Notes under the pieces: generated by a model | Database searches by the model: none | Seen by the model: the letters and a program-made list of their open reading frames with translations, nothing else | Told to the model about the DNA's origin: nothing | Origin: Prolixibacteraceae bacterium | Lineage (GTDB): Bacteria; Bacteroidota; Bacteroidia; Bacteroidales; Prolixibacteraceae | Assembly: GCA_028683385.1 (NCBI GenBank) | Contig: JAQUIJ010000002.1 | Coordinates: 310,001 to 374,000, forward strand | DNA length: 64,000 bases | Reading direction: 5' to 3' | Translations under genes and position numbers: made by a program | Part shown: positions 17,106 through 39,434 of the stretch, one piece after another | Layout of the letters: the number at the start of each line of letters is the position of its first letter | Numbering within the stretch: the stretch's first letter is position 1

Positions 17106-17123
17106 TTACTTCACTTCTTCAAA
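17106..17123 (-). other. attL: displaced 3' end of dnaK
   Basis: On the minus strand these 18 bases read F-E-E-V-K-stop, the exact C-terminus of DnaK. They match 39435-39452 at 16 of 18 positions, with an unbroken 11-base core, ACTTCTTCAAA (+ strand 17113-17123 and 39442-39452). Upstream codons are unrelated to dnaK and reach a stop after nine codons. The best explanation is target duplication by the element's integrase. Confidence 0.72.
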
Positions 17124-17158
17124 AATAACGACTATTGATTAACAGTAAATTAGGATGT

Positions 17159-17170
17159 TATGGTACAAAT
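17159..17170. repeat. Subterminal direct repeat of the element (left copy)
   Basis: TATGGTACAAAT occurs here and, in the same orientation, at 39306-39317, each a short way inside an att core. Near copies are at 20161-20172 (TATGGTATAAAT) and 36566-36577 (TATGGTGCAAAT). They could be arm sites for the integrase; the right copy also overlaps a -7 box. Confidence 0.4.
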
Positions 17171-17196
17171 AAGATACAGATATTAGTCTTTTGAAG

Positions 17197-17616
17197 TTAC
17201 TTACCAGCTTCAATTACTGCATCTGGATATTTACGGCATCTCAGTAACACCGATTTGCAAAAAGCGACAAAATCTTCATAACTACCCAATCCCTCGGGAG
17301 GATTAAGAGTTTTATACTTCTCAGGATACGCCTCCAACTCTTTAATGCCTTTTTCGAGTGGCAAAATCATTTGATAAGCAAAGGTAATGTCTATTTCCTC
17401 CGGATGCCACAAAACCTCATACAGCCCAACTTTTTGTGCCATTTTATTGAGATTATGAGTGATATTGACTGAGTATAATAATGCATCATCGTAGTCATCT
17501 TCAAGTTGTTTTATTTCATCCTGAATAATTCGTTGCTTCTCATAAAGATCAGAAATATTAGCTCTAATCTCCTTAATATCAATCTCCTTTTTGAAAAAAT
17601 ACAAATCTAAACTCAT
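17197..17616 (-). CDS. Uncharacterised protein of the NITHNL type
   Basis: A soluble 139-aa protein. Residues 12-45 form a probable coiled coil (IKEIRANISDLYEKQRIIQDEIKQLEDD). The core SVNITHNLNKMAQKVGLYEVLWHPEEI and the later GLGSYEDFVAFCKSVLLRCRKYPDAVIEAGK resemble a family of short phage and bacterial proteins of unknown function that I know only by the NITHNL...W.PEE pattern. There is no signal peptide or membrane segment. It is the last cargo gene at the left end of the element, 195 bases after the ATPase gene, and its codon use is AT-rich as there. An immunity, anti-phage or phage-derived role is open. Confidence 0.65.
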   Translation of the reverse strand: MSLDLYFFKKEIDIKEIRANISDLYEKQRIIQDEIKQLEDDYDDALLYSVNITHNLNKMAQKVGLYEVLWHPEEIDITFAYQMILPLEKGIKELEAYPEKYKTLNPPEGLGSYEDFVAFCKSVLLRCRKYPDAVIEAGK

Positions 17617-17683
17617 AGTGTGTTTTTATTTGTAATAAGTAGTCATAAGTCCTAAACTAAACACAGAATACTATTTTTATAGT

Positions 17684-17773
17684 CTATCTCATCATTAAAT
17701 TGGTAAAACCGCATATCCACTTCAGGTAGTCATCATACCAGGAGAATTTGTATCCTATTTTTTTTTCGGGCAT
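17684..17773 (-). pseudogene. Remnant of an AlbA_2-type protein N-terminus
   Basis: A 29-codon frame reads MPEKKIGYKFSWYDDYLKWICGFTNLMMR-stop. The stretch SWYDDYLKWICGF is the start of many AlbA_2 (Schlafen-like) ATP-binding proteins, which continue with AN-x-x-GG and about 400 further residues that are absent. The similarity is recalled from the family and was not searched. The piece lies between the RloC-like gene and the terminal small gene. It suggests that an earlier cargo gene was lost by deletion. Confidence 0.45.
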
Positions 17774-17811
17774 ATATTCTTTGAAATAGCTCAATTTTTA
17801 ATTTCAGACTA

Positions 17812-20145
17812 TTATGCATTATTTAGTCTCGCAATCATTGAATCATAATGCACTTTGTCAATATGTTCTACTAATTTCAACACATCAGGAACTATTTTAT
17901 CTGCTTCACCAAATATATTATCATTAAATCCCGTCATAGAAGCACCATTGTCTGTTTTGTGTGAAAAGTGATTTACAAACTTTCGGATTTTGGACAGATT
18001 TTCAAAATCGTTTATTTCATCAAAGCATTTCTCTAATTTTGTTCTACCGAATTTGAATGTCAGAAAACTTTCCAACAATTGACGACAAATATTTGCAATA
18101 GTATGTGTTGTTATATAATCAGTTTGTGGATTATCGCAAAACTTTTTTACTTCAGAAAACAATAAATGGTATTCTGAGTCAAAGTAATCAAGAATATTAT
18201 CAGCATTTTCAATATTCCCATTTCTCACATCGTTTTTAATTGTTGGTTTAATTTGATAAATGCTGTGCAAATCATATTTTTTCACTTTCCCATTTTCTGT
18301 CTTTTCTTCTTTTTCAAGTTTTATCCATTCTTTTTCTAAGGTAAAAAAATGAAAACTATGTGTAAAGACAAATAGTTGTAAAGCATTTTTACATTCATTT
18401 TTAATGAAAAAATTTGCATGGAATAAATGATTTGAATCGAAACTTGAAATTGGGTCATCAATTACAACAATCGTATCTTCAATTTTATTTCCATTCTCTT
18501 TGAGTTTTGTAATAAAATAGACCAAAGCGATAGCTGTTCTCTCGCCCTCACTCAAACTTCTACTTTTGGCTTCTTCGGTATTGTTTCTTTTTACAAGATA
18601 ACCACCTTCAGTTCGGCGTTCTAAGCTCAAATCATTTCGGCCGAGAAAGTTCCATAGTTTGTCGTTAAATTCACTCAATCCGAGTGTTTCGTTGGACAAC
18701 TTGTCTTTCAGAATCTTAACATCATTTTCAAAGGCTGTTGCTTCTTTGTTGATTTTCGATTGTTCTTCTTGCAATTTGCTTATTTGTTCCAACTTATCGA
18801 AATAACCAAATTTAGCAACTTCTTCCGAGACATAATGCAATTCCAATTTTTGTTTGTTGGCTTTAACGACGTCTTCTAAACCATCAAATTTTTTGTTATG
18901 ACTTTCAATATATTGCATCACTTTATTAAAAGCAATTGTATAAATATCAATTTCTGCTATTGAAATTTCGTTAATTGCATTTTGTGGAATTTCAAATGGA
19001 TTATTCTCTTTAATAGACAATGCGAATTTCCACTCTTCAAGCTTGGTATTCAGTAAATTAATAATCTTATCATAGTTTGAAAGTGATTGTTTATAATCAT
19101 TTTGAAATTCATCGTATAATAAAGTTTCAAACGGAAATTCAGTTCTAATTTTATTGCTTTCGATCCATTCAATCCCTTTTGATAATGCCTCTTTCAACTT
19201 CTCAAACTCATCACTAAAATGCTTATTCAAATCTGCAATCCTATATTCAGGTAGAGGTTGAGCACAAAATTCACAGATTGTAGCATCTTGACCATGTATA
19301 TTTTCTTGCAACCCTTGATACACCCATTGTGCAATAGCTGGATTTTCTTTTAATCGTTCTATCGCTTTTGTTGTAATCTTAGAATTGCACAGTTCCTTCA
19401 CTCTCTCAAAAATTTTCAAAAGTATTTCTGGATCATACTTTTGTATAGAGTTTACATCAATCTTGGTTTTGTCCTGCGGTCTAATACTTTTTGATAACCG
19501 TTCAATTTCAGGAACAGACAAGGTACTTTTCTTTGTCTTAATAGAATCTGCATTTTGAGTAATGAAGTTAGATAACTTTGTTTTATCATAATTCAATAAG
19601 CGTGTATCTTCAATTTCTATTACTTTGAAATTTGCCTTGATACTTTTTGCGGCATCTGATAAAAATTTATCCGTTAAAACAGTAAATCCTTTTGCTTTTT
19701 TATCGTCAGGATTTCCGTTTAATTCAATCTCAATTTCTTTTTTTCTATGAACTTTTTTGTTTAACTCCTTTGTTTTTTCGTCTAATTCTTCTTTGTCTTT
19801 TCCCTGTCCTTCTGATATATAGATAATTCCTTTAATTTTATCATTAGGAGTAAAAACATTCTTTTCAACAAAACTTTTATTGAAAGTCTTGATATTCAAA
19901 TTATTGTCATTGACATTGTTGTGCGTAATTTGTATATTATCCGCTTCAATACTCCATTCAGACAAAAAGTATTCCTGTGATTGTTCTTTCCGTTCTAGGC
20001 ATTCAAATAAAGAGGCAAGAGTGGATTTTCCGCTACCATTCCAACCGTAAAAAAGATTATAGCGGTTGTAATCTTTAAGATTGGCGTTGTGGAAATAGTT
20101 TTGAAAAATTCTAAAATTCTTTATGCTATTGATTTTCGTAATCAT
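17812..20145 (-). CDS. AAA_13 ATPase, RloC/PrrC-like anticodon nuclease candidate
   Basis: A 777-aa SMC-like protein. Walker A is GWNGSGKST (34-42). Coiled-coil stretches flank CEFC at about 291-294, placed like the zinc hook that marks RloC. The ABC signature LSEGERTAIAL and Walker B TIVVIDDPISSFDSNH (about 537-575), with an H-loop in FVFTHSFHFF, complete the ATPase. The C-terminal part (about 680-725) reads CRQLLE...IRKFVNHFSH: an Arg, a Glu four residues later and a His 34-37 residues on, the order of the PrrC/RloC tRNA-cleaving site. RloC enzymes cut tRNA at the wobble base after phage damage to DNA and often stand beside restriction genes, as here. GC is low (16 of 60 bases at 18001-18060). 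The nuclease call is inference. Confidence 0.7.
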   Translation of the reverse strand: MITKINSIKNFRIFQNYFHNANLKDYNRYNLFYGWNGSGKSTLASLFECLERKEQSQEYFLSEWSIEADNIQITHNNVNDNNLNIKTFNKSFVEKNVFTPNDKIKGIIYISEGQGKDKEELDEKTKELNKKVHRKKEIEIELNGNPDDKKAKGFTVLTDKFLSDAAKSIKANFKVIEIEDTRLLNYDKTKLSNFITQNADSIKTKKSTLSVPEIERLSKSIRPQDKTKIDVNSIQKYDPEILLKIFERVKELCNSKITTKAIERLKENPAIAQWVYQGLQENIHGQDATICEFCAQPLPEYRIADLNKHFSDEFEKLKEALSKGIEWIESNKIRTEFPFETLLYDEFQNDYKQSLSNYDKIINLLNTKLEEWKFALSIKENNPFEIPQNAINEISIAEIDIYTIAFNKVMQYIESHNKKFDGLEDVVKANKQKLELHYVSEEVAKFGYFDKLEQISKLQEEQSKINKEATAFENDVKILKDKLSNETLGLSEFNDKLWNFLGRNDLSLERRTEGGYLVKRNNTEEAKSRSLSEGERTAIALVYFITKLKENGNKIEDTIVVIDDPISSFDSNHLFHANFFIKNECKNALQLFVFTHSFHFFTLEKEWIKLEKEEKTENGKVKKYDLHSIYQIKPTIKNDVRNGNIENADNILDYFDSEYHLLFSEVKKFCDNPQTDYITTHTIANICRQLLESFLTFKFGRTKLEKCFDEINDFENLSKIRKFVNHFSHKTDNGASMTGFNDNIFGEADKIVPDVLKLVEHIDKVHYDSMIARLNNA

Positions 20146-20215
20146 ATATTGTTAAATTAATATGGTATAAATGATTGATTTAGCATATCCTCTAATTTGA
20201 AACTCTGACTTTTTA

Positions 20216-21697
20216 TTATTCCGTTTCACCCGCCTCAATAATCCTTCCCAACGAATAAATAACCGTTTGTTCTTCAAAATTATAAACGGCATCGATAATT
20301 TCTACTAAAGCACTTTCACGGTCTTTGTGATAGCCGACAAAGAAACGTATGGCATCGTACTTTTTGAGCCAACGTTTGCCTTCGTCTATATAGGTGTATT
20401 TATTAATCATAGAGGGTTTGAGCAGGCGGTATTCTTCTTTTTTTGTACCAGCTATGATTTCTTTGAAATAAATTTCCTTGATATTGAGGGTCAATATTTT
20501 CCAACCTGTAGTATCAATGGTTTTCTTTTCTATATTTTCGGCTACCGTATGCTCAATGATAATCTGGCTGATGGTATCGTAGCTTATCGGAATTTCTTTA
20601 ATGATACACAGAATGGCTTTTTCAATAGCAGTGTAGGGTACTACAAACCATTCTTCAGGAATTTGATTACCAATGCGAACTTGTAGGCGAACATCTTTGA
20701 ACACTCTATGTATTAATGCCTCAAAGCTTGAAACATTCATATTGTAAGCTTTCCAAGTGGCAATGATCTCAACTTTGGCATTCAGGTAAGTTGGTTCATT
20801 TTCAGCATTGGCAATGCGTTCTGCCACCGTGATGGTACTGAATCCGATCTTATAAAGATTGTCGATAGACTTTATTTCCGGATTCTCGGAAAGTGACTTT
20901 AAAACATAGATATAACCTGTAGGTTTATCATTGTTTGTTGCATTGAAACGAGCTTTGAAATAATCGCTGGTGGTTTCGTTGTTTTCCCTTACGGTGAACC
21001 CGTTTTCATAAAGGGCTTTTCGGAGTGTGTCGAGCATTACGTCAGACATGGTGCCATTCTCAAAAATACAGATACTACGCCCCATTAACCTCCCTTTACG
21101 GTCACGGCTATGGTCAAGTACTTCGGCCAAATAGACCAACATGCCATCGAGAACAAAATAACAGCCCTCATTCTCCAGCTGATTAGATGTAAACTTTACA
21201 AAGCTTCGCTTTCCTGACTTTAGTTCTTCGTGCACACGGATAAATCCATCCCGATAGAGGTAAAAATCTTCACATCTTCGCCGTTGAGCAATGTAATCGG
21301 TAGCATCAATTTTGGGTGTCTTCTGTAAATGCTCCGGTACAGTTAGTATATCCAATTCATCATCTTGCATATCCAGTAGCGGATCATTAAAAAAAGCTTC
21401 AATATCCGTTTCCGTTATGTTTTTTTTAGGGCGTAGCAGTTCAAACCTGTCATACGGTAAGAGATGGTTTAGTTTCTCACTATCGCTCAGGAATCCCTGC
21501 AGGCGACCGAGCATAAGCTTTTCTTTCCTGCCTTTTGTTTCGCTCGGTAATCGGTTATGCTGTTCGTAAAAGGCGTTGATTTCTTCAAATGATTGAACTA
21601 ATCGGTCACTGGAAGTCGTTTTTATTTCCGTTGGTTTGACATCCGAAAACAAAGGGTCGTTGAAAATGTCCTGTAGTTCTTTTTCAATATCCATCAT
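20216..21697 (-). CDS. GIY-YIG (T5orf172) nuclease fused to an ASCH domain
   Basis: A 493-aa protein with an unassigned N-terminal part (1-255, including a DUF-like helical region with two similar pieces, LQDIFNDPLFSD and IEAFFNDPLLDM), a GIY-YIG domain (about 260-355) and an ASCH domain (about 397-487). GIY-YIG marks are GYIYVLKS, NLYKIGFST, the catalytic Arg region AERIANAE and the metal Glu in SSFEALIHRVFKD. ASCH marks are the strand WKILTLNIKEIYF and the signature GTKKEEYRLL (GxKxxExR). ASCH relatives bind modified or flipped nucleotides, so this may be a nuclease guided by base modification. The ATG at 21697 starts just after the helicase stop; a TTG at 21721 is possible. Confidence 0.8.
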   Translation of the reverse strand: MMDIEKELQDIFNDPLFSDVKPTEIKTTSSDRLVQSFEEINAFYEQHNRLPSETKGRKEKLMLGRLQGFLSDSEKLNHLLPYDRFELLRPKKNITETDIEAFFNDPLLDMQDDELDILTVPEHLQKTPKIDATDYIAQRRRCEDFYLYRDGFIRVHEELKSGKRSFVKFTSNQLENEGCYFVLDGMLVYLAEVLDHSRDRKGRLMGRSICIFENGTMSDVMLDTLRKALYENGFTVRENNETTSDYFKARFNATNNDKPTGYIYVLKSLSENPEIKSIDNLYKIGFSTITVAERIANAENEPTYLNAKVEIIATWKAYNMNVSSFEALIHRVFKDVRLQVRIGNQIPEEWFVVPYTAIEKAILCIIKEIPISYDTISQIIIEHTVAENIEKKTIDTTGWKILTLNIKEIYFKEIIAGTKKEEYRLLKPSMINKYTYIDEGKRWLKKYDAIRFFVGYHKDRESALVEIIDAVYNFEEQTVIYSLGRIIEAGETE

Positions 21698-21701
21698 GGC
21701 A

Positions 21702-23639
21702 TCAACGATTTTTATCCACAAATTTTTGTTTCTCTTTTCGAATTACGGCAATAGCCTGTGCCAACCGCTTATTGAACGGATTCGGGTCGGTCAATTCGGG
21801 CAAGGCACCGTTGTGTTCTTCTTTGAACTGAGGAAGATATTTTTTGAAAAGAATAACAGCTTCCTCAATAGGCATATCGATTCTGCTTTCTTCAATCACA
21901 TTCTGAACGACCTTGAGTACGGGAGCAGTAACCGATTTGGAAAGGATTTCATAGCCCCGTTGGAACGGATTTATTGTATCAATAAGGTTAATGCTAAGGT
22001 TGTCGATATTGATAAAACGCCGACCAATAACCATAAAGGTATTGCCTGCACTCTGTTCAACAGTAGCACCTTTGGTTACAGCATCAAGAACTAGATGTTG
22101 GCGGACTTCTTCGACCTCGTCGGGTGAAAGTTCCGGGTATTTTTCCTGAATAATTTTTGGAATTAGCACCTGGTTTATGACTTCGGGCGCAATGCCGCCA
22201 CCCATAGAACGAACAATCATCTCGTCCTGCAAAATAGTGGCCTTGAGGTCGGTTAAATCACCCGTTACAATTTCTTTGGTACGTTCGGACGAAAGCGGTT
22301 TCAGGCCTTCCACAAATATACGAGGCATGTCATCGTCTCCCGACTCTTCGTCTTTCCTGGTTTTGAAATTCCACGAAGGAGCCATTACCTGTTCCATAAG
22401 CAACGAAACGGTAATTGCTTTCAGCATATCGTTAACTGCAGTTTCCACTTTTTGCTGCACGGCATCGGGGCAGGCAATCAGGTTGGTAAACTGTGCGTGC
22501 GATTTTCCTTCACAGTCGCGAGTACAACGCCCGATAATCTGAACTACTTCGGTCAGGCTTCCCCGTACTCCAATGGTGAGACAATGTTCGCACCATTGCC
22601 AGTCAAAACCTTCTTTTGCTGTACCGAGCGCAATAATAATATCAACCGCATCGCGGCTGTGCATCCGTTGCAGGAAGGCCTGCAATTGCAAGCGTTCACG
22701 CGGATTGTCCTCTACCAGATCTGCAATTTTGAGAGTACGGTTATCGGGAGTTTTGACTGTATAGATACGTGTTTCATAGTTGATATTTATGGTTTCACCA
22801 ATCCGGTCAATGATCTGTTTTACTTCGTCGTATTTATCGCCTGTAGAAGCACGTGAATTGACCGAGGGGATATGAATGATTGTTTTCTTATCAGGGTCTA
22901 ACACCTCCATAATGGCCGAAAGATATGACCCTTGATAAAAATGGTAGCCAATTCCAAGGCTTTTCAGGTATTTGTAACCGTTTAGTTGTTCGTAATAGTT
23001 GTAAGTGACCGGATAGAACCGGTTTTCATCGTCGGCGCGGAGTACCGGCACGCCATCGCCCCGGAAGTAAGAGCCAGTCATGGCAACTATGTGGGCTTTG
23101 GTTTGTGTCATCAGGCGGTGAACCAAATCACCTAAACCACTATTGGCATCGGCTGACACGTGGTGAAATTCGTCGATAGCCAACAGGCAATCATTAAAGG
23201 AATTATCACTTAGTTCTTTTGTTGCAAAACGCAAAGTTGCATGTGTACAAACCAAAATGTGAGCTTGCGTATCGGTTGTAAACTCCTTGAATCGTTTGAC
23301 TTTGTTTTGCTCGTTTTCGGCATCGCAAAGATTATAGTATTTGGCAACCCTCCAATCTGTAAAAAAGCCAAACTTTGCCAGATCGGTATTTGAAAATGAA
23401 CGTCCGATTGTTTTTTCGGGAACAGCAATAATCGCTTTTTTGAGACCCTGGTAGTGCAGTTTGTCTAAAGCAAGAAACATCAAAGCACGGCTTTTGCCGG
23501 AAGCGGGAGGAGCTTTCAGCAAAATGTATTGTTTGTTCCGGGCTTCGTAAGCCTTTGCCTGCATTTGCCGCATACCCAATTCGTTAGTATTGGTTGCTTT
23601 GCCTGTTTGGGCGTAGTTTATGTTGACGATATTTTCCAT
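21702..23639 (-). CDS. DEAD/DEAH-type helicase of the restriction-like cassette
   Basis: A 645-aa superfamily 2 helicase. Motif I is APPASGKSRAL (about 43-53), motif II is LLAIDEFHHVS (DEFH), motif III is VAMTGSYFRGD, and motif VI is VVQIIGRCTRDCEG. About 200 C-terminal residues follow without a recognised domain. Such helicases serve as the translocating motor of restriction systems. It lies 4 bases upstream of the GIY-YIG-ASCH gene and 390 bases after the AlbA_2 gene. A perfect 12-bp inverted repeat precedes its ATG. Nothing in it looks like a nuclease, so cleavage must come from a partner, most simply the GIY-YIG protein. Confidence 0.85.
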   Translation of the reverse strand: MENIVNINYAQTGKATNTNELGMRQMQAKAYEARNKQYILLKAPPASGKSRALMFLALDKLHYQGLKKAIIAVPEKTIGRSFSNTDLAKFGFFTDWRVAKYYNLCDAENEQNKVKRFKEFTTDTQAHILVCTHATLRFATKELSDNSFNDCLLAIDEFHHVSADANSGLGDLVHRLMTQTKAHIVAMTGSYFRGDGVPVLRADDENRFYPVTYNYYEQLNGYKYLKSLGIGYHFYQGSYLSAIMEVLDPDKKTIIHIPSVNSRASTGDKYDEVKQIIDRIGETININYETRIYTVKTPDNRTLKIADLVEDNPRERLQLQAFLQRMHSRDAVDIIIALGTAKEGFDWQWCEHCLTIGVRGSLTEVVQIIGRCTRDCEGKSHAQFTNLIACPDAVQQKVETAVNDMLKAITVSLLMEQVMAPSWNFKTRKDEESGDDDMPRIFVEGLKPLSSERTKEIVTGDLTDLKATILQDEMIVRSMGGGIAPEVINQVLIPKIIQEKYPELSPDEVEEVRQHLVLDAVTKGATVEQSAGNTFMVIGRRFINIDNLSINLIDTINPFQRGYEILSKSVTAPVLKVVQNVIEESRIDMPIEEAVILFKKYLPQFKEEHNGALPELTDPNPFNKRLAQAIAVIRKEKQKFVDKNR

Positions 23640-24047
23640 CTGTTTTATTCATTAAACCTAACAGATTTCTAGTATCTGTTAGGTTGTTCATTCTTTATGT
23701 GAGCAGCTCCGTACATTTTTAGTTGTAGCTGGGTACCTGCTTTATATTTCTAGTTCTTATATATTTGACTGTCAATTAGAAATTATTATTACAACTAGGT
23801 ACCAATTTGATATGAACCTAGGTACTAAACCTATTTATCCGGTAATTTCCGGCAACTTAGCTCAGGAATAAAGCACTCATTATCAGCTTGAAACTTATTC
23901 TTTTCCGGCAAATCCGGTAATTACACCCAGATAACGTCTCCCATAATCCGGTAATTTCCGGTAAATAATAGCTATCAAGTGACTTTGTATTGTGTTGCAT
24001 GACAGCAATTTAAAAACGACCGGTTGTTTTTATCCGGTAATTTCCGG
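23640..24047 (-). repeat. CCGG-type palindromic repeats between the AlbA_2 and helicase genes
   Basis: The near-palindrome CCGGTAATTTCCGG occurs exactly at 23839-23852, 23948-23961 and 24034-24047, and as a shortened form at 23905-23917. The first copy met on the minus strand codes the last residues (LPEITG) of the AlbA_2 protein; the other full copies also read LPEITG or ITG in their own frames. Nearer the helicase, GGTACC recurs at 23732-23737 and 23798-23803, with GGTACT at 23821-23826. No gene is supported in this gap. Confidence 0.75.
23655..23685. promoter_or_regulatory. Perfect 12-bp inverted repeat before the helicase gene
   Basis: AACCTAACAGAT (23655-23666) and ATCTGTTAGGTT (23674-23685) pair fully around 7 bases and stand 15 bases before the helicase ATG. 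It lacks a T-tract, so an operator or a translation-blocking hairpin fits better than a terminator. Confidence 0.55.
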
Positions 24048-25430
24048 TAATTCTTTATTCGTTCTAACGTATTTAGTTGAAGGACCATCACCGATGCGAT
24101 TAATCCATTCACCTTCCAATAATTTGCTAATATCGTTTCTTGCTGTTTTTTCTGAAATTTTACCTTCAAAAAACTTTTCAAAGTCTTCTCTGGTAAATTC
24201 ATAACCAATTTTCAAGCTTTTGAGATAATCCAACATTCTTTCATTCACATCAATAGGCTTTGAGATACCATAAAGAGTGAGGGTCGTGTAGCCACTTTGT
24301 GTTGTCCATTCAGGAGCTTTCAGTTTAAGTTCATCAAATCTGGTTTTAATCAAACTAAGCCCTCTACCAAGTTTTTCAATTTTCCCCCGGAGATAAAACA
24401 TGTGTGCAATCGTTGGATTTCGAAGCACAGAATGGTGTTCGTGAATTTTATTTTTTCCGGTAATAATATCGGAAGGTATTTCACCTGAGTTTATTATCTC
24501 AATTTTATCAGAATAAATATTGATAGTGATATCTCCTGAAATATCTGCATAATCACGGTGTATCATTGCATTTAGTACAGCTTCGTCTAAAGCATCAGTG
24601 GGATATTTAGGTCTGTTGGTTCTATCCCATTGATCATGCCTGAATTCGCTAATCATGGGGAGATTGCGTACAAAATATTCCTGAATTCGATTAAATGCTG
24701 CAAACAAGTTATCTTCAATTAACAGCGTATCATCGAATTTGCTTCCGGTTTTACCATATGGCATTACAGTTATACGTATTTGGCATTGAGAAATATACTG
24801 CAGAGGATCTTTCCCAAATAAAATGATACTTCCGTTACGAACCAAATTCATATCTACCAACTGAAAATAGTTCAGGAATCCTGAAACATCAGTTGGAAGA
24901 CTTTTACCCCGACCCCAATTAATGGCTTCTTTAATCGTAGTGTTAATTTCATTTTCTACAAGGTCATCTAAGGTAGCATCGAGTGCTGTTTGTTTTTCCC
25001 ATGTTGAAGTATATTCATTCGAAGTTCTCAACAATAAACTTATTTCATCAGGGGTTGCAGCTAGAGTTTTACTACCACTACGCACATAATATTTCTTTGA
25101 ATAGGAATATGGCTGTCTGGATCCTTTAATCACATTGACAAGCAAAACCTGTTGATTGTTGTACTCTTCAATACGAACATCTACTAAAGGTTGTGGGAAT
25201 ATCTCATCTAAGATTTGTTGTTTAAGTTCAACAAGTTTAGCTACTAAGTTATTAGAAATATCTCTGAACTCTTTCCCATTATAGCCAACCAGTACCCAGC
25301 CTCCCTGCGTATTGAGAAAAGAACATATTGCCTGCAAAATCTGAGGAGAATTAAATTCTGCCACAAATTCAATTTCTATATTTTCTTTGTGCTGAATTAA
25401 TTCAGCTATAAATGAAGTTTCTTTGCTCAT
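24030..25430 (-). CDS. AlbA_2 (Schlafen-like) / HATPase_c_4 ATP-binding protein
   Basis: A 466-aa protein. The AlbA_2 domain (about 12-130) has ENIEIEFVAEF, the glycine-rich SFLNTQGGWVLVGYNG and YYVRSGSKTLAATPDEI. The middle (about 250-375) holds the GHKL-like HATPase_c_4 segment: DALDEAVLNAMIHRDYADISGDITINIYSDKIEIINSGEI. A winged-helix end (about 395-450) has FTREDFEKFFEGKISEKTARNDISKLLEGEWI. These proteins are often miscalled RecG-like helicases; none of the helicase motifs is present. It overlaps the DUF4062 gene by 4 bases (ATGA), so the pair is translationally coupled and probably acts together. A regulatory or sensor role in defence is inferred. Confidence 0.82.
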   Translation of the reverse strand: MSKETSFIAELIQHKENIEIEFVAEFNSPQILQAICSFLNTQGGWVLVGYNGKEFRDISNNLVAKLVELKQQILDEIFPQPLVDVRIEEYNNQQVLLVNVIKGSRQPYSYSKKYYVRSGSKTLAATPDEISLLLRTSNEYTSTWEKQTALDATLDDLVENEINTTIKEAINWGRGKSLPTDVSGFLNYFQLVDMNLVRNGSIILFGKDPLQYISQCQIRITVMPYGKTGSKFDDTLLIEDNLFAAFNRIQEYFVRNLPMISEFRHDQWDRTNRPKYPTDALDEAVLNAMIHRDYADISGDITINIYSDKIEIINSGEIPSDIITGKNKIHEHHSVLRNPTIAHMFYLRGKIEKLGRGLSLIKTRFDELKLKAPEWTTQSGYTTLTLYGISKPIDVNERMLDYLKSLKIGYEFTREDFEKFFEGKISEKTARNDISKLLEGEWINRIGDGPSTKYVRTNKELPEITG

Positions 25431-26044
25431 AATTTGCTGATTTTTTCCATTAATGTTTTAATACGATCCGGATATTTAAACTGGCTCTCTAAATGAAGCC
25501 GAATATCTTCTAATGAAACATATTCCTGTACCCAATTTCCTTTACGTGTGAGTGGCGGAATTTTATCTTGAATCATTTGTTCATACAGTTGAACACACCG
25601 AACATCCATTATTTTGTTGTCGTTGAAATTTATATTTGAAGAATCAACATTGAAATGCACACCTAAAGAAGGAATATCTAAAGTCGATTTTCTTATCAAT
25701 GAGCGAGTAAAGGTTACTCTATGATCTGCCATTATAAATCGTGGAATCTTTCTACCGACTGCGGTTTCAAATTCAATATGTGTTATTGATTTTCCTCCTT
25801 TTTCCAATACACCCGAACCATAATCGGGACGAATAAAACCAACAAACACATCACATTCGGTTACCCCTTCAATACAATTCTGAAGATTAGATTCACTACT
25901 ATCAATGGAGAAAGTTCCTTTGTGTGAATTAAAAACGTCATACCCGAATCCATCTAATAGTTCGTATATTTTATTTAACTCAGTTTGGAAATTATAAACT
26001 GTTGAAGCCAAAAATACTTTTATGTGGTTACGAGGTGCAGGCAT
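25427..26044 (-). CDS. DUF4062 protein
   Basis: A 205-aa soluble protein with the DUF4062 start IKVFLASTVYNFQTELNKIYELLDGFGYDVF and the middle ECDVFVGFIRPDYGSG...SITHIEFETAVG. This is a TIR/nucleoside-deoxyribosyltransferase-like Rossmann layout (strand, SST-like loop, later Glu in HIEFE). TIR-type folds in defence systems often cut NAD or bind nucleotides; whether this one does is unknown. It lies 48 bases after the methyltransferase stop and overlaps the AlbA_2 gene, so all three may share one mRNA. Confidence 0.8.
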   Translation of the reverse strand: MPAPRNHIKVFLASTVYNFQTELNKIYELLDGFGYDVFNSHKGTFSIDSSESNLQNCIEGVTECDVFVGFIRPDYGSGVLEKGGKSITHIEFETAVGRKIPRFIMADHRVTFTRSLIRKSTLDIPSLGVHFNVDSSNINFNDNKIMDVRCVQLYEQMIQDKIPPLTRKGNWVQEYVSLEDIRLHLESQFKYPDRIKTLMEKISKL

Positions 26045-26092
26045 AATTTTCTTGTTTTTTATTGTTCAAGTCTTATATTCGTAATTATCTAT

Positions 26093-28765
26093 TCATTTCT
26101 TCGTCATTTTTTCATACAATGCAAATAAATGCTCCAGGCGTTCTTCGTCGGAATGGAAAGGTGCCGGGCGGTAGCAGCTTTCCACCACGCGATCCAGCTT
26201 GCTGTGTGCCTCGCGTAGGTTGGTAGGCATGTGGTCGGGATCGTACATTTGCGCCAGGGTTTTCTCGGTGTGTTGCTCACGTGCCATCAGCACATTTTCG
26301 GCAGCTTGCTCAATATCAGTTCGTTTGGCTTCGGTGATTTTGGGGAAAGGAAAGGAATTATAACAAAGACTTGTGTATCGATAATCCATTTTTAATTTCC
26401 CCCCAATTGTATTAACCCACAAAATATTCATAACAGAAGTTAGAATTCCAAATAGCCATAATGGTGCATCGGAAACTGTATAAGTTGCATTTGTAACAAC
26501 GGTATCATCATCAGCATAATCCATTGGAATATACTGCCTATTTGAAGAAGAAGTGGAGGGGATAATCAAAGTTTCAGCATTACAAGCATTAAACTCTCTA
26601 AATTGGTGAGGACGTTGCGCTAGATTACGAGCACCTTCATCAGGACTTTTCAAACGCATTTCTGCCGTTTTCTCAATACGCTGCTTTATGATCGGAATTT
26701 TTTCAGCTTCTTCACGCTCCTCATCTGCAATCCACAAACAATATCGAATAAGACCATTGATAAAATCAGCTGAACTAAACAACTTTTTAATAAACATTTG
26801 AGATTGTGGGTACTGAGTAATCAAATCGTTCCTTTCAGTCTGAGACAGCAGTAAGTTGCCTCCATCATAAGGCATACAACCTCTGATTATTGGCGGAAAA
26901 GTTGATAAGCTTTTAGTATGTTTTTTTACAATTAAATTTTCACCAATGACTAAGTAAGGATTTATATTGTGTACTTCTTGTTTTGCGACTCCTTCATAAA
27001 GTAGACTCTTTTTATGTTTTTCTCTATTTACCAAACCTATTATAACACAAAAAACAGCTGCATTTTGTTTCGCATTATTACTCCATCTGAAAGATAAATG
27101 AGCAAAACCTATAAGTACATTCATATTTAGAATAGGAGTCCACAAGGGTTCAACCATTTCTCCCTGACAAATAGAATTTGTACTTACAAAAGCACACCTT
27201 GCACTTGAGCCTTTAATATAGTTTGCACCTTTTATAAACCAAATTCCAATATAATCTATCTTCTTATTGTTTGGATATTTACCTATCGCAAAAGTTCTAT
27301 CGTCTTGTTGAGATTTATCCAACTTTGAACTTCCCAAATACGGTGGATTTCCCATAATATACACTTCATCATTAGTTGTATGAGGGCAAACGGTATTCCA
27401 GTCGGTGCGGCAGGCATTGCCACATACAATATTTCCGCTTCGGCGCAGGGGAAGTGCATCCACATGTGTTTGGAAACGGCTCTCGAATTGCCGGTTCATT
27501 TGGTGCTCGGCCAACCACAACGAAAGTGTGGCGGTTTCGTGTGCAAATTCGTCCAACTCAATTCCGTGAAACTGCGTGAGAGAAATGTTGGAGAAAGGAA
27601 TTTCTTTTAGTCCGTGATTGAGGCTTTCTATCTGTTCCCAAATCAAAAGTTCAAGTTTACGGAGTTCCTTGTAAGTAATAATCAGGAAATTGCCACTACC
27701 GCAAGCCGGATCGAGAAACTTAATGCGCCCCATGCGAGCCAGCAACTGCCGGAGGCGCTTTTCGTTGGTGCGCCCAGCGGCAAACTCAGCATAAAGTTCG
27801 TCTAAGAAAAGCGGTTGAATCAGCTTCATAATGTTGGACACAGATGTGTAGTGCGAGCCGAGTGAGCTGCGCAGCTCAGGCGAGATTACCGCCTGAATCA
27901 TGCTCCCGAAAATGTCGGGGTTTATTTCAGCCCAGTTCAGGTCACCACATTCGAGCAAAAGTCTCCGCGCTTTCCAACTGAGTGCAGGTACATCGTAGTG
28001 TTCGGCAAAAAGCCCGCCATTCACATACGGAAAGCGGCTGATATGAGCCGGTTTTGTAACCCGGAAAGAAGCATTGTTTGTGCTCATTACATCAAATGCT
28101 TCACTAATGATGGTACTTAGGTCGCTGCCATCAGCAAGCGTGAAATCGTTCAGCGTACTTGTAAAAATTTTGTCAGGAAAAATACCTGTGTCTTCGGCAA
28201 AAAAGCAAAAAAGCAGGCGCGACATAAATACGTTGAGCGCATGAATGGCACTGGTATCGCTGTAGTCAATCTCGTTGTAACGGCGTATTTCGTCGAAAAT
28301 ACGCGCCATTTTGTAAGCGGCTTTTACGTCGGCTTCCTTTTCCTCTGGAGCATGGTAGCGTTCCACGCCTGCCAGCGGCATAAAGAACTGGTAGTCGTAA
28401 CGCAGGCGGTCAACGGTGTTTTCGTAGCTCTCTTCCTCCACCGGATCATATCCCAAAAGGGTTTCACCATCCGACACCACCAGCAGGCGTGTGGCTTTGG
28501 TTACTTTTTCGTTTTGCTTCAAGGCTTCCAGATTTTCCACCAAGTTTTCGGTCGTGCAAGAACTGTATGCCAGCAGCTTTTTCACTACAAAGGTGTTTGG
28601 ATCTTTCGACAGGTTATCTTTGCCGTCTTTAATACGATTAATCCGGGTTTCAGACATGCCGTTGAAGATGCGCAACAAGTCATAGCCCAATTCCTGGGCG
28701 GTAGTTGTTTCGGACAGTTCGGGTAACCGGGCTTCTATGGATTGATAGGATATGGTGGTTGACAT
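26093..28765 (-). CDS. DNA adenine methyltransferase, MmeI/YeeA-like
   Basis: An 890-aa class I methyltransferase. The N-terminal region (about 1-170) is that of MmeI/YeeA-type proteins, but I see no clear PD-(D/E)xK nuclease residues. A helical spacer follows. Motif I is FLDPACGSGNFLI (about 349-361) and motif IV is IMGNPPYLGSS (about 471-481), the NPPY form used for N6-adenine. The target recognition domain and a C-terminal helical domain make up the rest. The segment coding the recognition domain is much poorer in GC than both flanks, suggesting exchange. It leads the cargo operon and would mark host DNA for a helicase-nuclease partner encoded downstream. Confidence 0.87.
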   Translation of the reverse strand: MSTTISYQSIEARLPELSETTTAQELGYDLLRIFNGMSETRINRIKDGKDNLSKDPNTFVVKKLLAYSSCTTENLVENLEALKQNEKVTKATRLLVVSDGETLLGYDPVEEESYENTVDRLRYDYQFFMPLAGVERYHAPEEKEADVKAAYKMARIFDEIRRYNEIDYSDTSAIHALNVFMSRLLFCFFAEDTGIFPDKIFTSTLNDFTLADGSDLSTIISEAFDVMSTNNASFRVTKPAHISRFPYVNGGLFAEHYDVPALSWKARRLLLECGDLNWAEINPDIFGSMIQAVISPELRSSLGSHYTSVSNIMKLIQPLFLDELYAEFAAGRTNEKRLRQLLARMGRIKFLDPACGSGNFLIITYKELRKLELLIWEQIESLNHGLKEIPFSNISLTQFHGIELDEFAHETATLSLWLAEHQMNRQFESRFQTHVDALPLRRSGNIVCGNACRTDWNTVCPHTTNDEVYIMGNPPYLGSSKLDKSQQDDRTFAIGKYPNNKKIDYIGIWFIKGANYIKGSSARCAFVSTNSICQGEMVEPLWTPILNMNVLIGFAHLSFRWSNNAKQNAAVFCVIIGLVNREKHKKSLLYEGVAKQEVHNINPYLVIGENLIVKKHTKSLSTFPPIIRGCMPYDGGNLLLSQTERNDLITQYPQSQMFIKKLFSSADFINGLIRYCLWIADEEREEAEKIPIIKQRIEKTAEMRLKSPDEGARNLAQRPHQFREFNACNAETLIIPSTSSSNRQYIPMDYADDDTVVTNATYTVSDAPLWLFGILTSVMNILWVNTIGGKLKMDYRYTSLCYNSFPFPKITEAKRTDIEQAAENVLMAREQHTEKTLAQMYDPDHMPTNLREAHSKLDRVVESCYRPAPFHSDEERLEHLFALYEKMTKK

Positions 28766-29452
28766 CTTATGCTTGAGTGTTGGTGTGAAGTAATTTATGG
28801 TCTTCTCTTAATTTTCTGATTTTATCTGCGAATAGCATAATCACCTTGGTTTAGATTTTTGGCTTTTTTAATTGTCAGAATTTGAACAAATGTAGCCAGT
28901 TTCCGCAAATTTCTGCTAGTAAATGCACTCTTTATTGATAACTATTTCCACGTATTATATATGAGAATCTTAGCGTTGCACAGTATCTCCTTTTTTATTT
29001 TGTAAACACTCTTCCTATGGAAAGAATAAATAAGGCAACACTTCTATGGGAAATACTACCCGCAGCATAGTCGAAGGTGTGGAGATTTTCCTTAGAACCG
29101 CTTGCGGCTTGGTGTTGACGTTTTATTCCTGGAATATATCTTTGTTTACCAAATGAAAGAGTAAGGTAATTTGTATGCGGAACGGTAGAAAAAGCAAGGC
29201 TGTTCTGCCCAAATCAACGCTTTTCGATTTGCCAAAATGGATAACTAATAAAAAAGGCAAGGGTGTTGGCACAATGAAGTGGAGCCAACTCTCTTGCAAC
29301 TTTCCCGAGACTTAAAGCTGGAGAAAACGGAGGCTTTAGGTCGCAGGGATTAAATTATTCAATATGCATTTTCTCAACCTCTGGTGGTGTTTTCGGATAG
29401 CGAACCACCAAACCCCGCAATTCAATATTCACTGTAACTTGCATGCACTTTT
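28766..29452. other. 687-base gap without a supported gene
   Basis: The gap separates the methyltransferase operon from the 484-aa gene. It holds a minus-strand terminator (29250-29297), a TGGTGGT/ACCACCA hairpin near 29382-29410, and a 46-codon plus-strand frame at 29175-29315 (starting MRNGRKSKAVLPKST, basic) that runs over the terminator and is not convincing. The promoter of the methyltransferase operon should lie in 28766-28960, but no clean TTG/TAnnTTTG pair was found. Confidence 0.5.
29250..29297 (-). terminator. Intrinsic terminator for the 484-aa gene
   Basis: On the minus strand GCAAGAGAGTTGGC (29297-29284) and GCCAACACCCTTGC (29270-29257) pair at 12 of 14 positions and are followed by CTTTTTTATT. 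It lies about 155 bases after the stop of the 484-aa gene. Confidence 0.75.
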
Positions 29453-30907
29453 TTATGGATTCATATTTATAAATAAATGATATACTTCTATTTTACTTGT
29501 CTCTCTTAAATGTGTAACCTTAGCTAATTTCAAATTGGCTCTTGTCGGAGAAATTTTTAAATCACGTTCACATTCGATATGCTGATACTTACCAAAATCA
29601 ATTTTTGAAATATAGTCAACATATTTATCCCAAGTGCTGGAAAACTCCTGTGTTTCACAATATGAGATTATAAATAAAGGGCTAAGTCCGATAGGCTCAT
29701 TCCTAAATATCTTCTGTACATGTCTCTGTATGTAGGATTCTTTGTCAACATTTACTGGAACGGATTTTAGTCTTAAGCATTCAATGGCAGAAATATGTTG
29801 TTGTTTTTCGTTTAGTATTATAAAGTCTCGGGATGAGATACCGGCGTTAAATGATTTACTAGGAGAATCAGTTGTTCCTCCTCTTGATTCCTCATTCACA
29901 GACCAATTTTTATGTTCTAACGATTGTTTTAAAAGACTTTTAATTACCAAGTTGTAAGCATTTTCAGAAGGTACCTTTTTGTGAAGAAATACATTGTCAA
30001 GGAAGTTTGATGTAACACTTATGATTGTATCAACTAAATAGTTTTTGTCGTTTTCACTTATTCCACTTCTTTTTTCTTTCAACCATTCTTTGATAATCAA
30101 TTGATAGATTTGATAATCACTGCCGGCATATCCTGAGAGGTTGGGCATAATCCGGTATTCAATGTGATTTAAGAAGTCAATGTTAGCTCCCTTATATCTT
30201 TTAAAATGAAAATCTAGATATTGTTTAATTTCCGCCCTTGGTCTAATATGTATTAATTCCCATTTAAACTCTCCATGATAATTATTGAGATGATATTTAA
30301 TATCTCCAAAACCTTCACCTACGTCGGTCGTGTCTTTTAATGCCAGATATTCATTCCATGAATCATCAAGGTTTTTTAATTGATATTTTTGTTTTTTTAC
30401 TTTTTTGTCTTCTTGAACATCATAATAGCCTGGAATATTGTCTGTATTGATATAAAATTCGTCTAAAGCATCAAGACGGTCAAGGATTGAATAGTGGGCT
30501 TTATTAGTATCGGAAGGCTCAATTGCCGTTAACATTTTTAAGTAACGCTCTGTTTCTTCAAAAATACCTACAAGAAATCCAACTCTTTCGAAGTTTATCT
30601 TTGCAGGGTCTCTTCCCCAACTTACTTCATGTTCAATGAGAATACGGTCTACCTCTTTTTCTGCATCCTTTTTAACTTTATAAAACCATCTAACCAACTC
30701 TTCTTTTGAAAAAATTCTTCTTCTTATATCATCTAGCATCTTATGCAACTCATTAATTCCATTTTCTTTCTCAGAGTAGCATCTTTTCCAATATTCTCTA
30801 TTCTCTAAATGCTTGAATAAATATGAATTAAGTGCAGTAACATATTTTTTCGAATCATCTTTTATAGATGAAAAGAATGATACATCTTTTAAATATATTT
30901 TTTCCAT
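29453..30907 (-). CDS. Uncharacterised 484-aa protein, possible PD-(D/E)xK nuclease end
   Basis: I do not recognise this protein as a whole. The N-terminal 250 residues are rich in charged helices (KYVTALNSYLFKHLENREYWKR, RRIFSKEELVRWFYKVKKDAEKEVDRI). Near the C-terminus the order SRDFIILNEKQQHISAIECLRLKS (about 362-385) recalls a PD-(D/E)xK core: Asp in a strand, then Glu, then Lys; after it comes QRHVQKIFRNEPIGLSPLFIISYCE, like the helix and strand that close such folds. There is no signal or membrane segment. It follows an HNH gene by 126 bases on the same strand, between the relaxase and the methyltransferase. A defence effector is plausible from position; the nuclease reading is weak. 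Confidence 0.6.
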   Translation of the reverse strand: MEKIYLKDVSFFSSIKDDSKKYVTALNSYLFKHLENREYWKRCYSEKENGINELHKMLDDIRRRIFSKEELVRWFYKVKKDAEKEVDRILIEHEVSWGRDPAKINFERVGFLVGIFEETERYLKMLTAIEPSDTNKAHYSILDRLDALDEFYINTDNIPGYYDVQEDKKVKKQKYQLKNLDDSWNEYLALKDTTDVGEGFGDIKYHLNNYHGEFKWELIHIRPRAEIKQYLDFHFKRYKGANIDFLNHIEYRIMPNLSGYAGSDYQIYQLIIKEWLKEKRSGISENDKNYLVDTIISVTSNFLDNVFLHKKVPSENAYNLVIKSLLKQSLEHKNWSVNEESRGGTTDSPSKSFNAGISSRDFIILNEKQQHISAIECLRLKSVPVNVDKESYIQRHVQKIFRNEPIGLSPLFIISYCETQEFSSTWDKYVDYISKIDFGKYQHIECERDLKISPTRANLKLAKVTHLRETSKIEVYHLFINMNP

Positions 30908-31033
30908 ATACTTTTCTTAATTGCGCTAATTCGGCATTGCTGTTAATGGTTGATGGAATTTGCGGAGCAGATTTCGAAGACAACACACAGAAGAAATCCC
31001 GCCATGCAATTTACAATTTGTTAGGCGTAGATT

Positions 31034-31810
31034 TTAATCATTTAATACTTTTGTCATTATTTTATAAGCTTCATTTAAGGCTTCTCTGTCACTATCATGA
31101 CTCTTGCGAAGGAAATAGAAAATAGCAATTTTGAACATTGGAAAACTAATAAATATATACTCATTCGCTAAACTGAAGAAATTAAAGCCTGAGGTTTTCG
31201 GTTCAAATATTAATAATGATTTGATCCTCTCATACTTTCTTTTTACTGTTACTCTATTTTGAGATTGTCTCAGGAAGTTATACGCTTTAAATGGATTCAT
31301 TTCAAAAAAGTGTCGAAGCATTGCGACAGAAAATTCACCCCATCCTTGGATGTATTCAGAGTTACCATATTTGATATATTTTCTACGACACTCGTAAACC
31401 TGTAATTTGTAATCGAGGATTTCGAGCCAACTGATAATATTGCATAAATCGTCTTGAGTGTAATTCTCCTTTGACTCTATTTTTTTTATTATTTTAATGA
31501 TACATTCTTCAATATTTGAGAGTGCTACGTTGTTGCATGTCGAACATGCTGGTATTATAGCTTTATGATATGTTTGTGTTTGTTTATTAACTCTGGAAAT
31601 CATCGAAATATCTATGTTATTTTCGAAAAGCCATTGAGGTAGAACATGTTCTCTTGTTAATCCCGATGTAGATTTACAGAATACACAAATCTCCTCTATA
31701 TTTTTTGGAGATGCCGGATGCACTCTTTTAAATACATCCTCTGCAATTATCTTCCCGTTTTTTCTAAGGTTTACTCTTAAATATTTAAAATCTTGGTTTA
31801 TATCACTCAT
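31034..31810 (-). CDS. HNH-like zinc-finger nuclease candidate
   Basis: A 258-aa protein whose first half holds CVFCKSTSGLTREHVLPQWLF (about 42-62) and IPACSTCNNVALSNIEECI (about 88-106): two CxxC pairs around an EHVLPQW catalytic-type segment and an Asn in the second knuckle, as in the HNH/ββα-metal family. The rest is helical and unassigned. It starts 3 bases after a 38-codon frame and comes just after the mobilization genes. It is paired with the 484-aa gene. DNA nicking or cutting is inferred from the motif; the target is unknown. Confidence 0.72.
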   Translation of the reverse strand: MSDINQDFKYLRVNLRKNGKIIAEDVFKRVHPASPKNIEEICVFCKSTSGLTREHVLPQWLFENNIDISMISRVNKQTQTYHKAIIPACSTCNNVALSNIEECIIKIIKKIESKENYTQDDLCNIISWLEILDYKLQVYECRRKYIKYGNSEYIQGWGEFSVAMLRHFFEMNPFKAYNFLRQSQNRVTVKRKYERIKSLLIFEPKTSGFNFFSLANEYIFISFPMFKIAIFYFLRKSHDSDREALNEAYKIMTKVLND

Positions 31811-31811
31811 A

Positions 31812-31928
31812 TTAAACGATTGCCAGTCTTGCTAGATTTACGTCTAAATTAGTTAAGAAATTTTTAGATTGAACTTCAATTGTTCTATGCAATTCTTCAA
31901 ACAAGGCATAAACTGCCGAAGAATCCAT
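31812..31928 (-). CDS. Possible 38-aa small protein
   Basis: An ATG at 31928 opens the frame MDSSAVYALFEELHRTIEVQ..., ending in NLARLAIV 3 bases before the HNH ATG. It lies 36 bases after the relaxase stop. The predicted peptide is one long amphipathic helix. The tight link with the HNH start suggests a coupled leader or antitoxin-like peptide, but nothing else supports it. Confidence 0.35.
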   Translation of the reverse strand: MDSSAVYALFEELHRTIEVQSKNFLTNLDVNLARLAIV

Positions 31929-31963
31929 TTCTCAGCAGCTCATTAGTATTGATTTTAATTTGG

Positions 31964-32929
31964 TCACAATCTGTGCCGGTATTGGTTATCTTTCTTCTTC
32001 CTTCGCCGTTGGGCTTCAGCTCTTAAAAACTCGGCCTCATTTTCATCGTAATGATTTGGAGTGTTCAGCAAATCAAACAATCCTCCCAATACGGAAGCTG
32101 CACTCTCAAGTCCTGATGCAATATCGATTGTGTTGTCCTGTTGGTTTATTTGATTAGTTTGATCTGATTCTGAATGATGCTGGCTTTCATTTCGGTGTAT
32201 CTTCTCATTCAGATACAACTGGTAACTGATTTTAGAAAAACTGCAAGCCCGGTCAATCTTGGAGCCGTTGAACTCATATCCATTCCTTCCAAATCGAACT
32301 CCCTGGATCTTGTCTGTGTTTCCGTTTTTTCGGAATTCAATAGTAATACCGGACTGGAGTAATTCCGCTTTTAGTTTCTTCCAGTTCCTGCAATTTGGGA
32401 TAACAGATTTCAGAGTGTGATAAATTTCGTACTTAGTTTTATCCGGCTCTTTTAACCGATGTTCTTTTACGTTCTCTTTCCCTGAAGCAATATACAAACC
32501 GTACTTTTTTGTCAGCTCCATACAAACACGGGTATTTCGAAGTTTTTCGTTCTGATCGGAAATACGTTTCCCGTTGTTATCAATCCGGTTGATCACGATA
32601 TGAATATGTGGATGATCTGTGTCGTGGTGTCGGACAATGATATATTGTGTATCCCGGTATCCCATCTTTTTCATGTACTCCAGTGCCATACCAGCCATAA
32701 ACTGATCGCTCAGTCTGTGTTTATCCTGCACCGAAAAGTCCAATGAAATATGCGCAACCGGTTTGGCTATTTTCGGATTTAGCTTTTGCTGGGCAACGAA
32801 ACTTTTGATAATCGATTCCTTGTCTTTTATCCTGACCCCTTCAGCATAAAGCAAATGAGAATGATCTTTATCTAGGACATAGTTTACCACGCCACGGAAT
32901 CCACGTCCCTGTACAATCTTAGCAATCAT
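31964..32929 (-). CDS. Relaxase, MobB-like (MOBP)
   Basis: The 321-aa enzyme should nick oriT and pilot the strand in conjugation. The N-terminus MIAKIVQGRGFRGVVNYVLD is typical of Bacteroides MobB-type relaxases. The metal-binding histidines are in YIIVRHHDTDHPHIHIVINRI (about 96-116, H-x-D-x-x-H-x-H). A basic region and a Gln/His-rich tail follow (HRNESQHHSESDQTNQINQQDN). The gene overlaps mobC by 11 bases. No type IV secretion gene is in the element, so it must use the mating apparatus of another element. Confidence 0.9.
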   Translation of the reverse strand: MIAKIVQGRGFRGVVNYVLDKDHSHLLYAEGVRIKDKESIIKSFVAQQKLNPKIAKPVAHISLDFSVQDKHRLSDQFMAGMALEYMKKMGYRDTQYIIVRHHDTDHPHIHIVINRIDNNGKRISDQNEKLRNTRVCMELTKKYGLYIASGKENVKEHRLKEPDKTKYEIYHTLKSVIPNCRNWKKLKAELLQSGITIEFRKNGNTDKIQGVRFGRNGYEFNGSKIDRACSFSKISYQLYLNEKIHRNESQHHSESDQTNQINQQDNTIDIASGLESAASVLGGLFDLLNTPNHYDENEAEFLRAEAQRRRKKKDNQYRHRL

Positions 32930-33281
32930 CTTCTATTTTGCTAATTACATCATCCAGCTTCCCGATCATAAGTAAGCAGTGTTTGTGTATTGAAGAATAC
33001 CCAGCGGCATTGGCTTTATGGGCAATCTGGTTGATGTTGTTGGCCATTCCGCTGAGTTGCCGTATGTGGTTCATCAACTCCGGTGTTATGCGCTGCTTAA
33101 CTACACTGATCTGGATACATTGGCGGATATATTCGCTTTGATTAATTCCGGCTTCAAGCGCCTTGGTTTTTAAGTATCTGTATTCTTCTACAGCCATTTT
33201 GATCGTTATTTTATGCCCTTTCTTTTCGGCAGGTTCTTTAGCTGGCCTACCACCAGTATTCCTGTTTTTTATTGTTTTCAT
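32919..33281 (-). CDS. MobC-like relaxosome protein
   Basis: A 120-aa DNA-binding accessory protein. After a basic start (NRNTGGRPAKEPAEKKGHKITIKMAVEEYRYLKTKALEAGINQSEYIRQC) that looks like a ribbon-helix-helix fold, the MobC signature HIRQLSGMANNINQIAHKANAAG follows (about 74-96). It helps the relaxase open oriT. The gene lies between the oriT-like repeats and the relaxase, in the order usual for Bacteroidota mobilizable elements. Confidence 0.9.
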   Translation of the reverse strand: MKTIKNRNTGGRPAKEPAEKKGHKITIKMAVEEYRYLKTKALEAGINQSEYIRQCIQISVVKQRITPELMNHIRQLSGMANNINQIAHKANAAGYSSIHKHCLLMIGKLDDVISKIEDDC

Positions 33282-33333
33282 GCTTTTACTTTAATTGTTC
33301 AAATTAGACCGGCGGGATGTTTTAGGCCTCGCA

Positions 33334-33371
33334 GAGCAAGGTTTCGGGCAGTCCGAAACACAAACTTGCTC
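33334..33371. other. Candidate oriT: nested inverted repeats
   Basis: GAGCAAG (33334-33340) pairs with CTTGCTC (33365-33371), and inside it GTTTCGG (33341-33347) pairs with CCGAAAC (33353-33359). The structure stands 53 bases upstream of mobC, the usual place of oriT. The next 110 bases (33425-33530) are rich in TTATT/TTCATT units and twice contain ATGCAGAA, which may be protein-binding sites. The nic site cannot be named. Confidence 0.6.
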
Positions 33372-33526
33372 CCCATACTGACTGCATAATATTGCACGGA
33401 TATAGCTAATAATGAATAAATTACCTGTTTTATGCAGAAATATTTATTTCTATTCATTCCTGTTCATTCTTATTTATTTGTATTCAGAATTATGCAGAAT
33501 TGTTTATTCGGCCCGCCTCAGATAAG

Positions 33527-33856: not shown

Positions 33857-33873
33857 TAATTGATCGTTTATAA

Positions 33874-35024: not shown

Positions 35025-35124
35025 TGCGAATAATTTAAAAGTTAGAATTTATTTGTTGATTAAAAGAAACTTGCAGTTTCAATAAGTATTTTGGGGTATT
35101 TCCAAGGAATTGGATGTTCAATCA

Positions 35125-36546: not shown

Positions 36547-36656
36547 AACTATCGTTTTTAATTGTTATGGTGCAAATGAAACAGGTGTTTTCGTTGTGTT
36601 TTACGACACTGGAAAAACACAACGAAAACACTGGAGATTTTAATAAACTGCTGTTG

Positions 36657-38623: not shown

Positions 38624-38634
38624 GTGGTATAGCT

Positions 38635-39204: not shown

Positions 39205-39305
39205 ATTGTTCTTAATAATCGCTTGCGTTATACCAATTAAATACGGTTAAGATATTATAAGACTTAATAAGGCGCACATTAACATCAATTAACGCGCGGA
39301 ACATA

Positions 39306-39320: not shown

Positions 39321-39360
39321 TGATAAAAATTGATTGGGAAGTATTAAATTCAATAAATTT

Positions 39361-39403: not shown

Positions 39404-39434
39404 CTCTATTTTTGATTATCGTTTTCTATCGACC

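Follow-up and report, generated by a model that had tools for sequence, protein, structure and literature searches.

Six consecutive genes that each resemble a known defence family may form one antiphage system, or they may be a known operon carrying defence genes that can be separated from it. The question is raised by six successive open reading frames (ORFs), all on the minus strand, that span positions 17812-28765 of a 64-kb stretch of a Prolixibacteraceae contig (hereafter the window). A sequence-only reading had treated them as one composite cassette in an arrangement that it could not match to any named system. The extent and strand that it gave agree exactly with the ORF list of the window, and all six ORFs receive strong Pfam scores. 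The component parts are of known kinds, as that reading had proposed, and a six-gene system is unsupported.

By domains and gene order, the methylase, helicase and nuclease genes belong to the DnmA-YeeB-YeeC type, so the arrangement is not an unknown one. In B. subtilis, DnmA is an MmeI homologue lacking a nuclease motif and is followed by the helicase YeeB and the T5orf172 protein YeeC, a cluster conserved across many bacteria (PMC9973331). The corresponding methylase gene of the window (26093..28765, minus strand) encodes a predicted DnmA-like, MmeI-family adenine methylase with the Pfam domains MmeI_N, hel, Mtase, TRD and C and the motifs DPACGSGNF (352) and NPPY (473). It aligns with MmeI (5hr4) from residue 93 onward, with homology over 797 residues, and PADLOC calls it type IIG-like (968 bits). 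We rejected assignment to the type IIG/IIL enzymes, which join nuclease and methylase in one protein, because a motif scan of residues 50-140 found no nuclease-type acidic-x-K motif, in keeping with the original description of a methyltransferase without visible nuclease motifs. A helicase and a T5orf172 protein follow on the same strand and in the same order as in DnmA-YeeB-YeeC, with an insertion 3' of the methylase. On plasmids of Providencia, E. coli and Rhodococcus we found the same trio with its genes directly adjacent, the Providencia nuclease being divided into two ORFs.

The helicase (21702..23639, minus strand) is a YeeB-like DEAD/DEAH superfamily II protein by its alignment and by Pfam (DEAD, ResIII), as had been called. 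The YeeC-like nuclease gene (20216..21721, minus strand) is annotated from a TTG start that may lie too far upstream, with internal ATG codons downstream of it. Its GIY-YIG domain (Pfam T5orf172/MUG113) occupies residues 269-373 and carries the motifs GYIY and KIG. A predicted model of the protein (mean pLDDT 80.6, high in the C-terminal domain at about residues 405-498) points to an ASCH/PUA-like fold at the C-terminus: this domain superposes best on the ASCH structure 3iuw (Z 8.7, rmsd 2.8 over 76 residues) and matches many ASCH and YTH chains at Z 5-6.6 in a fold search. Pfam gave no ASCH match in the window nuclease and weak ones in three of seven relatives (E 0.0085-0.035), so the GIY-YIG-ASCH label of the sequence-only reading is borne out by superposition of the predicted structure, with weak sequence support. 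A one-protein PDB search with the GIY protein returned no match. In L027-L044 and L013, the GIY-YIG gene consists of a short ORF (about 70-95 aa) and a longer one, and in the window it is a single ORF.

Comparison across loci showed that the junction between methylase and helicase is a recurrent slot with exchangeable cargo, present in several phyla. We scanned one-genome-per-species contigs with a helicase alignment and kept 80 loci out of several hundred matching stretches, a sample picked by likeness to the window helicase and rich in Bacteroidota; to these we added eight genomes of the same phylum (one repeating a locus) and three plasmids. The methylase-helicase junction was closed (-65 to +42 bp) in 31 of the 79 loci with an upstream methylase, window counted, and open (471-4357 bp) in the other 48, where the filling nearly always consisted of same-strand genes. 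In contrast, the helicase-nuclease junction was closed in 90/91 loci, a difference with a Fisher p of 5e-20 that is inflated because kinship is ignored. Slot families by Pfam include AlbA_2/HATPase_c_4, RhuM, Bro-N, Fic, YhcG, AbiJ_NTD4 and Abi_C, along with AAA_15, DUF4435, AIPR, KAP, SecB-like, PolyVal kinase and M78+HTH proteins. Abi and toxin-like families are common among them and AlbA_2 is one of the most frequent occupants; the slot proteins of L074 and L082 are HTH-bearing Fic proteins by Pfam and not AlbA_2. Other slot genes match no Pfam family and may fall outside defence. Beyond Bacteroidota, occupied slots occur in Sulfurovum, Sulfurimonas, Thiotrichaceae, Lentisphaerae, Pontiellaceae, Leptospiraceae and Pirellulaceae. 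Slot content requires at least 35 changes on the helicase tree, and the open or closed state alone requires 20. Turnover extends to the sister locus of the window, L026, which has a helicase 94% identical to that of the window, RhuM in place of the DUF4062-AlbA_2 genes, and no RloC. The new points here are the slot, the NADase-AlbA_2 pair that fills it in the window, and the repeats at the 3' ends of AlbA_2 genes, though the slot may have been described before.

In the window, the slot holds two genes on the minus strand. One (25427..26044) encodes a DUF4062 protein (Pfam E 3e-17), and the next (24030..25430) encodes an SLFN_AlbA_2 protein with a RecG-C-terminal-like HATPase_c_4 domain and weak helix-turn-helix (HTH) matches at its C-terminus. 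We found DUF4062 relatives in 19/395 genomes of the same phylum, and AlbA_2 directly followed DUF4062 in 17 of 18 loci, mostly with an overlap of 4 bases; the window pair, too, overlaps by this length, at the DUF4062 stop and the AlbA_2 start. Five such pairs lie inside type I restriction-modification (R-M) loci (L139, L141, L147, L148, L149) and others elsewhere, and a fused DUF4062-HATPase_c_4 gene occurs in L149 and in L089, where it sits in the slot and adjoins the DnmA-type helicase. The pair is thus a two-gene module in its own right and separable cargo. No paper naming it was found in literature open without subscription, and a scan of viral contigs found no DUF4062 or AlbA_2 relatives.

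The DUF4062 protein is a predicted NADase. KpSwz (Swarozyc) is a DUF4062 NADase that is switched on by the phage portal and has the catalytic glutamate E97 (PMC13174449), and this solved family member backs the TIR-like label that the protein had been given. The window profile matches the KpSwz structure (10wc) over chain residues 4-101 only. E91 of the window protein is invariant in an alignment of 12 homologues and falls opposite an alanine at chain position 84 of 10wc, which from the numbering we take to be the E97A mutation; the window protein thus appears to keep the catalytic glutamate position. We did not file it as Swarozyc because the C-terminal portal-binding auxiliary domain is absent (205 aa, against a chain of 326 residues). 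A one-protein PDB search gave no match, and single-sequence structure prediction reached a pLDDT of 37.6. In PADLOC, the HATPase region of the AlbA_2 protein scores against models for Argonaute-associated proteins that contain SIR2, which hints that this domain partners NADases elsewhere.

Between AlbA_2 and the helicase lies a 390-bp gap (23640-24029) that the sequence-only reading overlooked. Three copies of TTRCCGGAAATTACCGGA, each a pair of half-sites with a period of 10, stand on the minus strand at or past the AlbA_2 stop (24033-24050, 23947-23964 and 23838-23855), where 0.07 would be expected in the window. The first begins inside the last AlbA_2 codons: the gene ends in TTACCGGAAATTACCGGA, and the two further copies follow within 210 bp. 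Just 5' of the helicase start is a perfect 12-bp hairpin, AACCTAACAGAT-N7-ATCTGTTAGGTT (23655..23685, minus strand; z -3.7), possibly an attenuator or a terminator of the upstream part. Using a pair test for 7-mers recurring 8-13 bp apart, scored against shuffles, we detected 3'-end repeats in 16/30 AlbA_2 genes and in 9/169 neighbouring other genes. In a separate HATPase_c_4 sample, repeats were present at 8/28 3' ends, 0/27 5' ends and 1/28 mid-gene positions. The half-sites are lineage-specific and common to close relatives, and they form paired direct repeats with a period of 9-12 bp. Besides the window (23838-24050), paired repeats at or just past the AlbA_2/HATPase_c_4 stop were observed in L137, L138, L139, L150, L143, L064, L018, L057, L033, L089, L162, L171, L176 and L185. 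We infer that they are putative binding sites of the AlbA_2 protein itself.

Downstream of the nuclease, the last gene (17812..20145, minus strand) encodes a 777-aa AAA_13 protein (Pfam E 1e-122), which PADLOC labels PDC-S06. RloC is defined as a protein of 658-897 aa whose ABC ATPase motifs are split by an insert with a CxxC zinc hook, and which carries an R-X3-E-X36-52-H triad, often with Ser before the His (PMC2610378). The window protein has Walker A at 34, CxxC at 291-294, LSEGE at 531, IDDP, and the triad R688-X3-E692-X36-H729 with Ser before His (FSH). On these published sequence features it is an RloC, as its motifs had suggested, and is predicted to cut tRNA. Its relatives L153-L155 keep the CxxC and the triad and lie in type I R-M loci (hsdM-hsdS-RloC-hsdR). 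We tried RloC as a regular partner of the trio and dropped it: the gene directly follows the DnmA-type nuclease in the window only, one of 82 loci, and the association may be due to chance. A one-protein PDB search with RloC also gave no match.

The cassette lies in a probable integrated mobile element of about 22 kb with approximate bounds (17113..39452). An 11-bp match, ACTTCTTCAAA, occurs at 17113 and at 39442, and both ends read FEEVK-stop, the DnaK C-terminus, on the minus strand. The 11-bp match alone could be chance, but because both ends share this reading frame the two sites are likely the attachment sites of an element integrated at the dnaK 3' end. Reading of the sequence also places a tyrosine-recombinase-like integrase (37364..38623, minus strand) and relaxase/mobilisation genes (31964..33281, minus strand) within it. 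Between the cassette and the relaxase, at 29453-31810, are a gene for 484 aa without a Pfam match and a weakly HNH_5-like gene for 258 aa, which could be further cargo. The genome of the window has six HsdM_N (type I methylase) matches and several HATPase_c_4 matches, so other R-M loci in it could carry embedded genes.

We therefore favour, with a probability of roughly 0.65, a DnmA-YeeB-YeeC R-M-like operon in which exchangeable second-line defence genes are embedded, the whole being cargo of a mobile element at dnaK. The activities that had been predicted for the single genes (self-modification, a helicase with a GIY-YIG nuclease, a TIR-like partner and a tRNA nuclease) are probably right. 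The DnmA-like methylase would tag host DNA with m6A, which in the DnmA-YeeB-YeeC type falls on a non-palindromic site, and the YeeB-like helicase with the YeeC-like GIY-YIG/ASCH nuclease would attack invading DNA that is unmarked or differently marked. The slot pair would deplete NAD, with DUF4062 destroying NAD+ once its AlbA_2/HATPase/HTH partner, a putative sensor or regulator, lets go. RloC may excise the tRNA wobble base upon restriction failure or DNA breakage. What the analysis shows is the identity, order and motifs of the genes, the slot statistics, the recurrence of the module and the mobile-element setting; we infer all of the activities, the sensor role and any cross-talk between the layers.

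That all six genes are one co-evolved system, as first proposed, has in its favour their succession on one strand, but we consider it very improbable. Free-standing DUF4062 and RloC were found with the trio only in the window and in 0/90 other distinct loci examined, so the combination is unrepeated there, and the closest relative (L026) has RhuM instead and lacks RloC. A more serious rival is that the slot is merely a tolerated insertion point: DUF4062-AlbA_2 and RloC would then be addictive or selfish genes in their own right, using the promoter of the operon without any interaction with the trio. Unrelated families do turn over fast in the slot, and the same modules occur in type I R-M loci and elsewhere (e.g., L137, L150, L152). 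However, insertion is limited to one junction, strand is nearly always kept, the helicase-nuclease junction is spared, and many slot genes are of defence-like families. None of these points demands cross-talk, and independent cargo is quite possible, though we do not favour it. As a tentative extension of the favoured reading, DUF4062 with AlbA_2/HATPase_c_4 might be a distinct NADase defence module whose AlbA_2 sensor or regulator reads the 3' paired repeats, with half-sites spaced 10-12 bp. This and other guard modules could then dock interchangeably in type I R-M and DnmA-YeeB-YeeC operons.

The repeats and hairpin between AlbA_2 and the helicase, and the excess of 3' repeats in AlbA_2-family genes over their neighbours, would also fit an AlbA_2 protein that is mainly a transcription controller, binding past its own gene to time helicase and nuclease expression in the manner of a C protein. 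We think this rather unlikely: some loci with AlbA_2 have no restriction genes downstream, the pair test detects no such repeats in about half of the AlbA_2 genes, and DNA binding is putative. More doubtful still is that the methylase is a relic or orphan regulator with a dead restriction arm, as was concluded for B. subtilis. Since the dnmA-yeeB-yeeC genes of that species did not protect it from any of three phages (PMC9973331), the window trio may be inactive too. Against this, all three trio genes are intact with catalytic motifs, and the dnmA and yeeB homologues of V. crassostreae were reported to protect against some phages (PMC9973331).

On the favoured reading, DnmA-YeeB-YeeC operons join type I R-M and Hma as known hosts of embedded suicide-type defence genes, at one fixed junction, with rapid exchange and in several phyla. 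The methylase-helicase junction is thus a practical spot for finding untested defence genes, and it offers a way to ask whether the operon is guarded by the genes embedded in it. For the DUF4062 NADases, recognised only recently, the analysis also supplies a defined partner and candidate cis-acting sites.

Compared with known systems, the trio of the window resembles DnmA-YeeB-YeeC of B. subtilis and V. crassostreae in its gene order and in all three components: an MmeI-like methylase lacking the nuclease motif, a helicase of superfamily II and a protein of the T5orf172/GIY-YIG kind. It differs in the two genes between methylase and helicase, in the RloC gene that trails it and in the ASCH-fold C-terminus predicted for its nuclease. 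Its methylase is homologous to MmeI (type IIL/IIG), which it departs from in lacking the nuclease motif and in having a separate helicase and nuclease downstream. With Swarozyc, the window DUF4062 protein shares its domain and, by alignment, the catalytic glutamate position, whereas it stands alone, has no portal-binding domain and is partnered by a separate AlbA_2/HATPase_c_4 protein. The RloC gene agrees with those of G. kaustophilus and A. baylyi in size, ABC motifs, zinc-hook CxxC and R-X3-E-X36-H triad, but is linked to a DnmA-type operon and not to type I or III R-M. Genes embedded in defence operons include PrrC in EcoprrI, TgvAB in type I R-M, Hma-embedded genes and the Campylobacter rlo genes (PMC12707154, PMC11411939, PMC2610378). 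The window likewise places secondary defence genes within an R-M-like operon, but here the host operon is DnmA-YeeB-YeeC, the insertion is confined to a single junction, and the cargo is exchanged fast.
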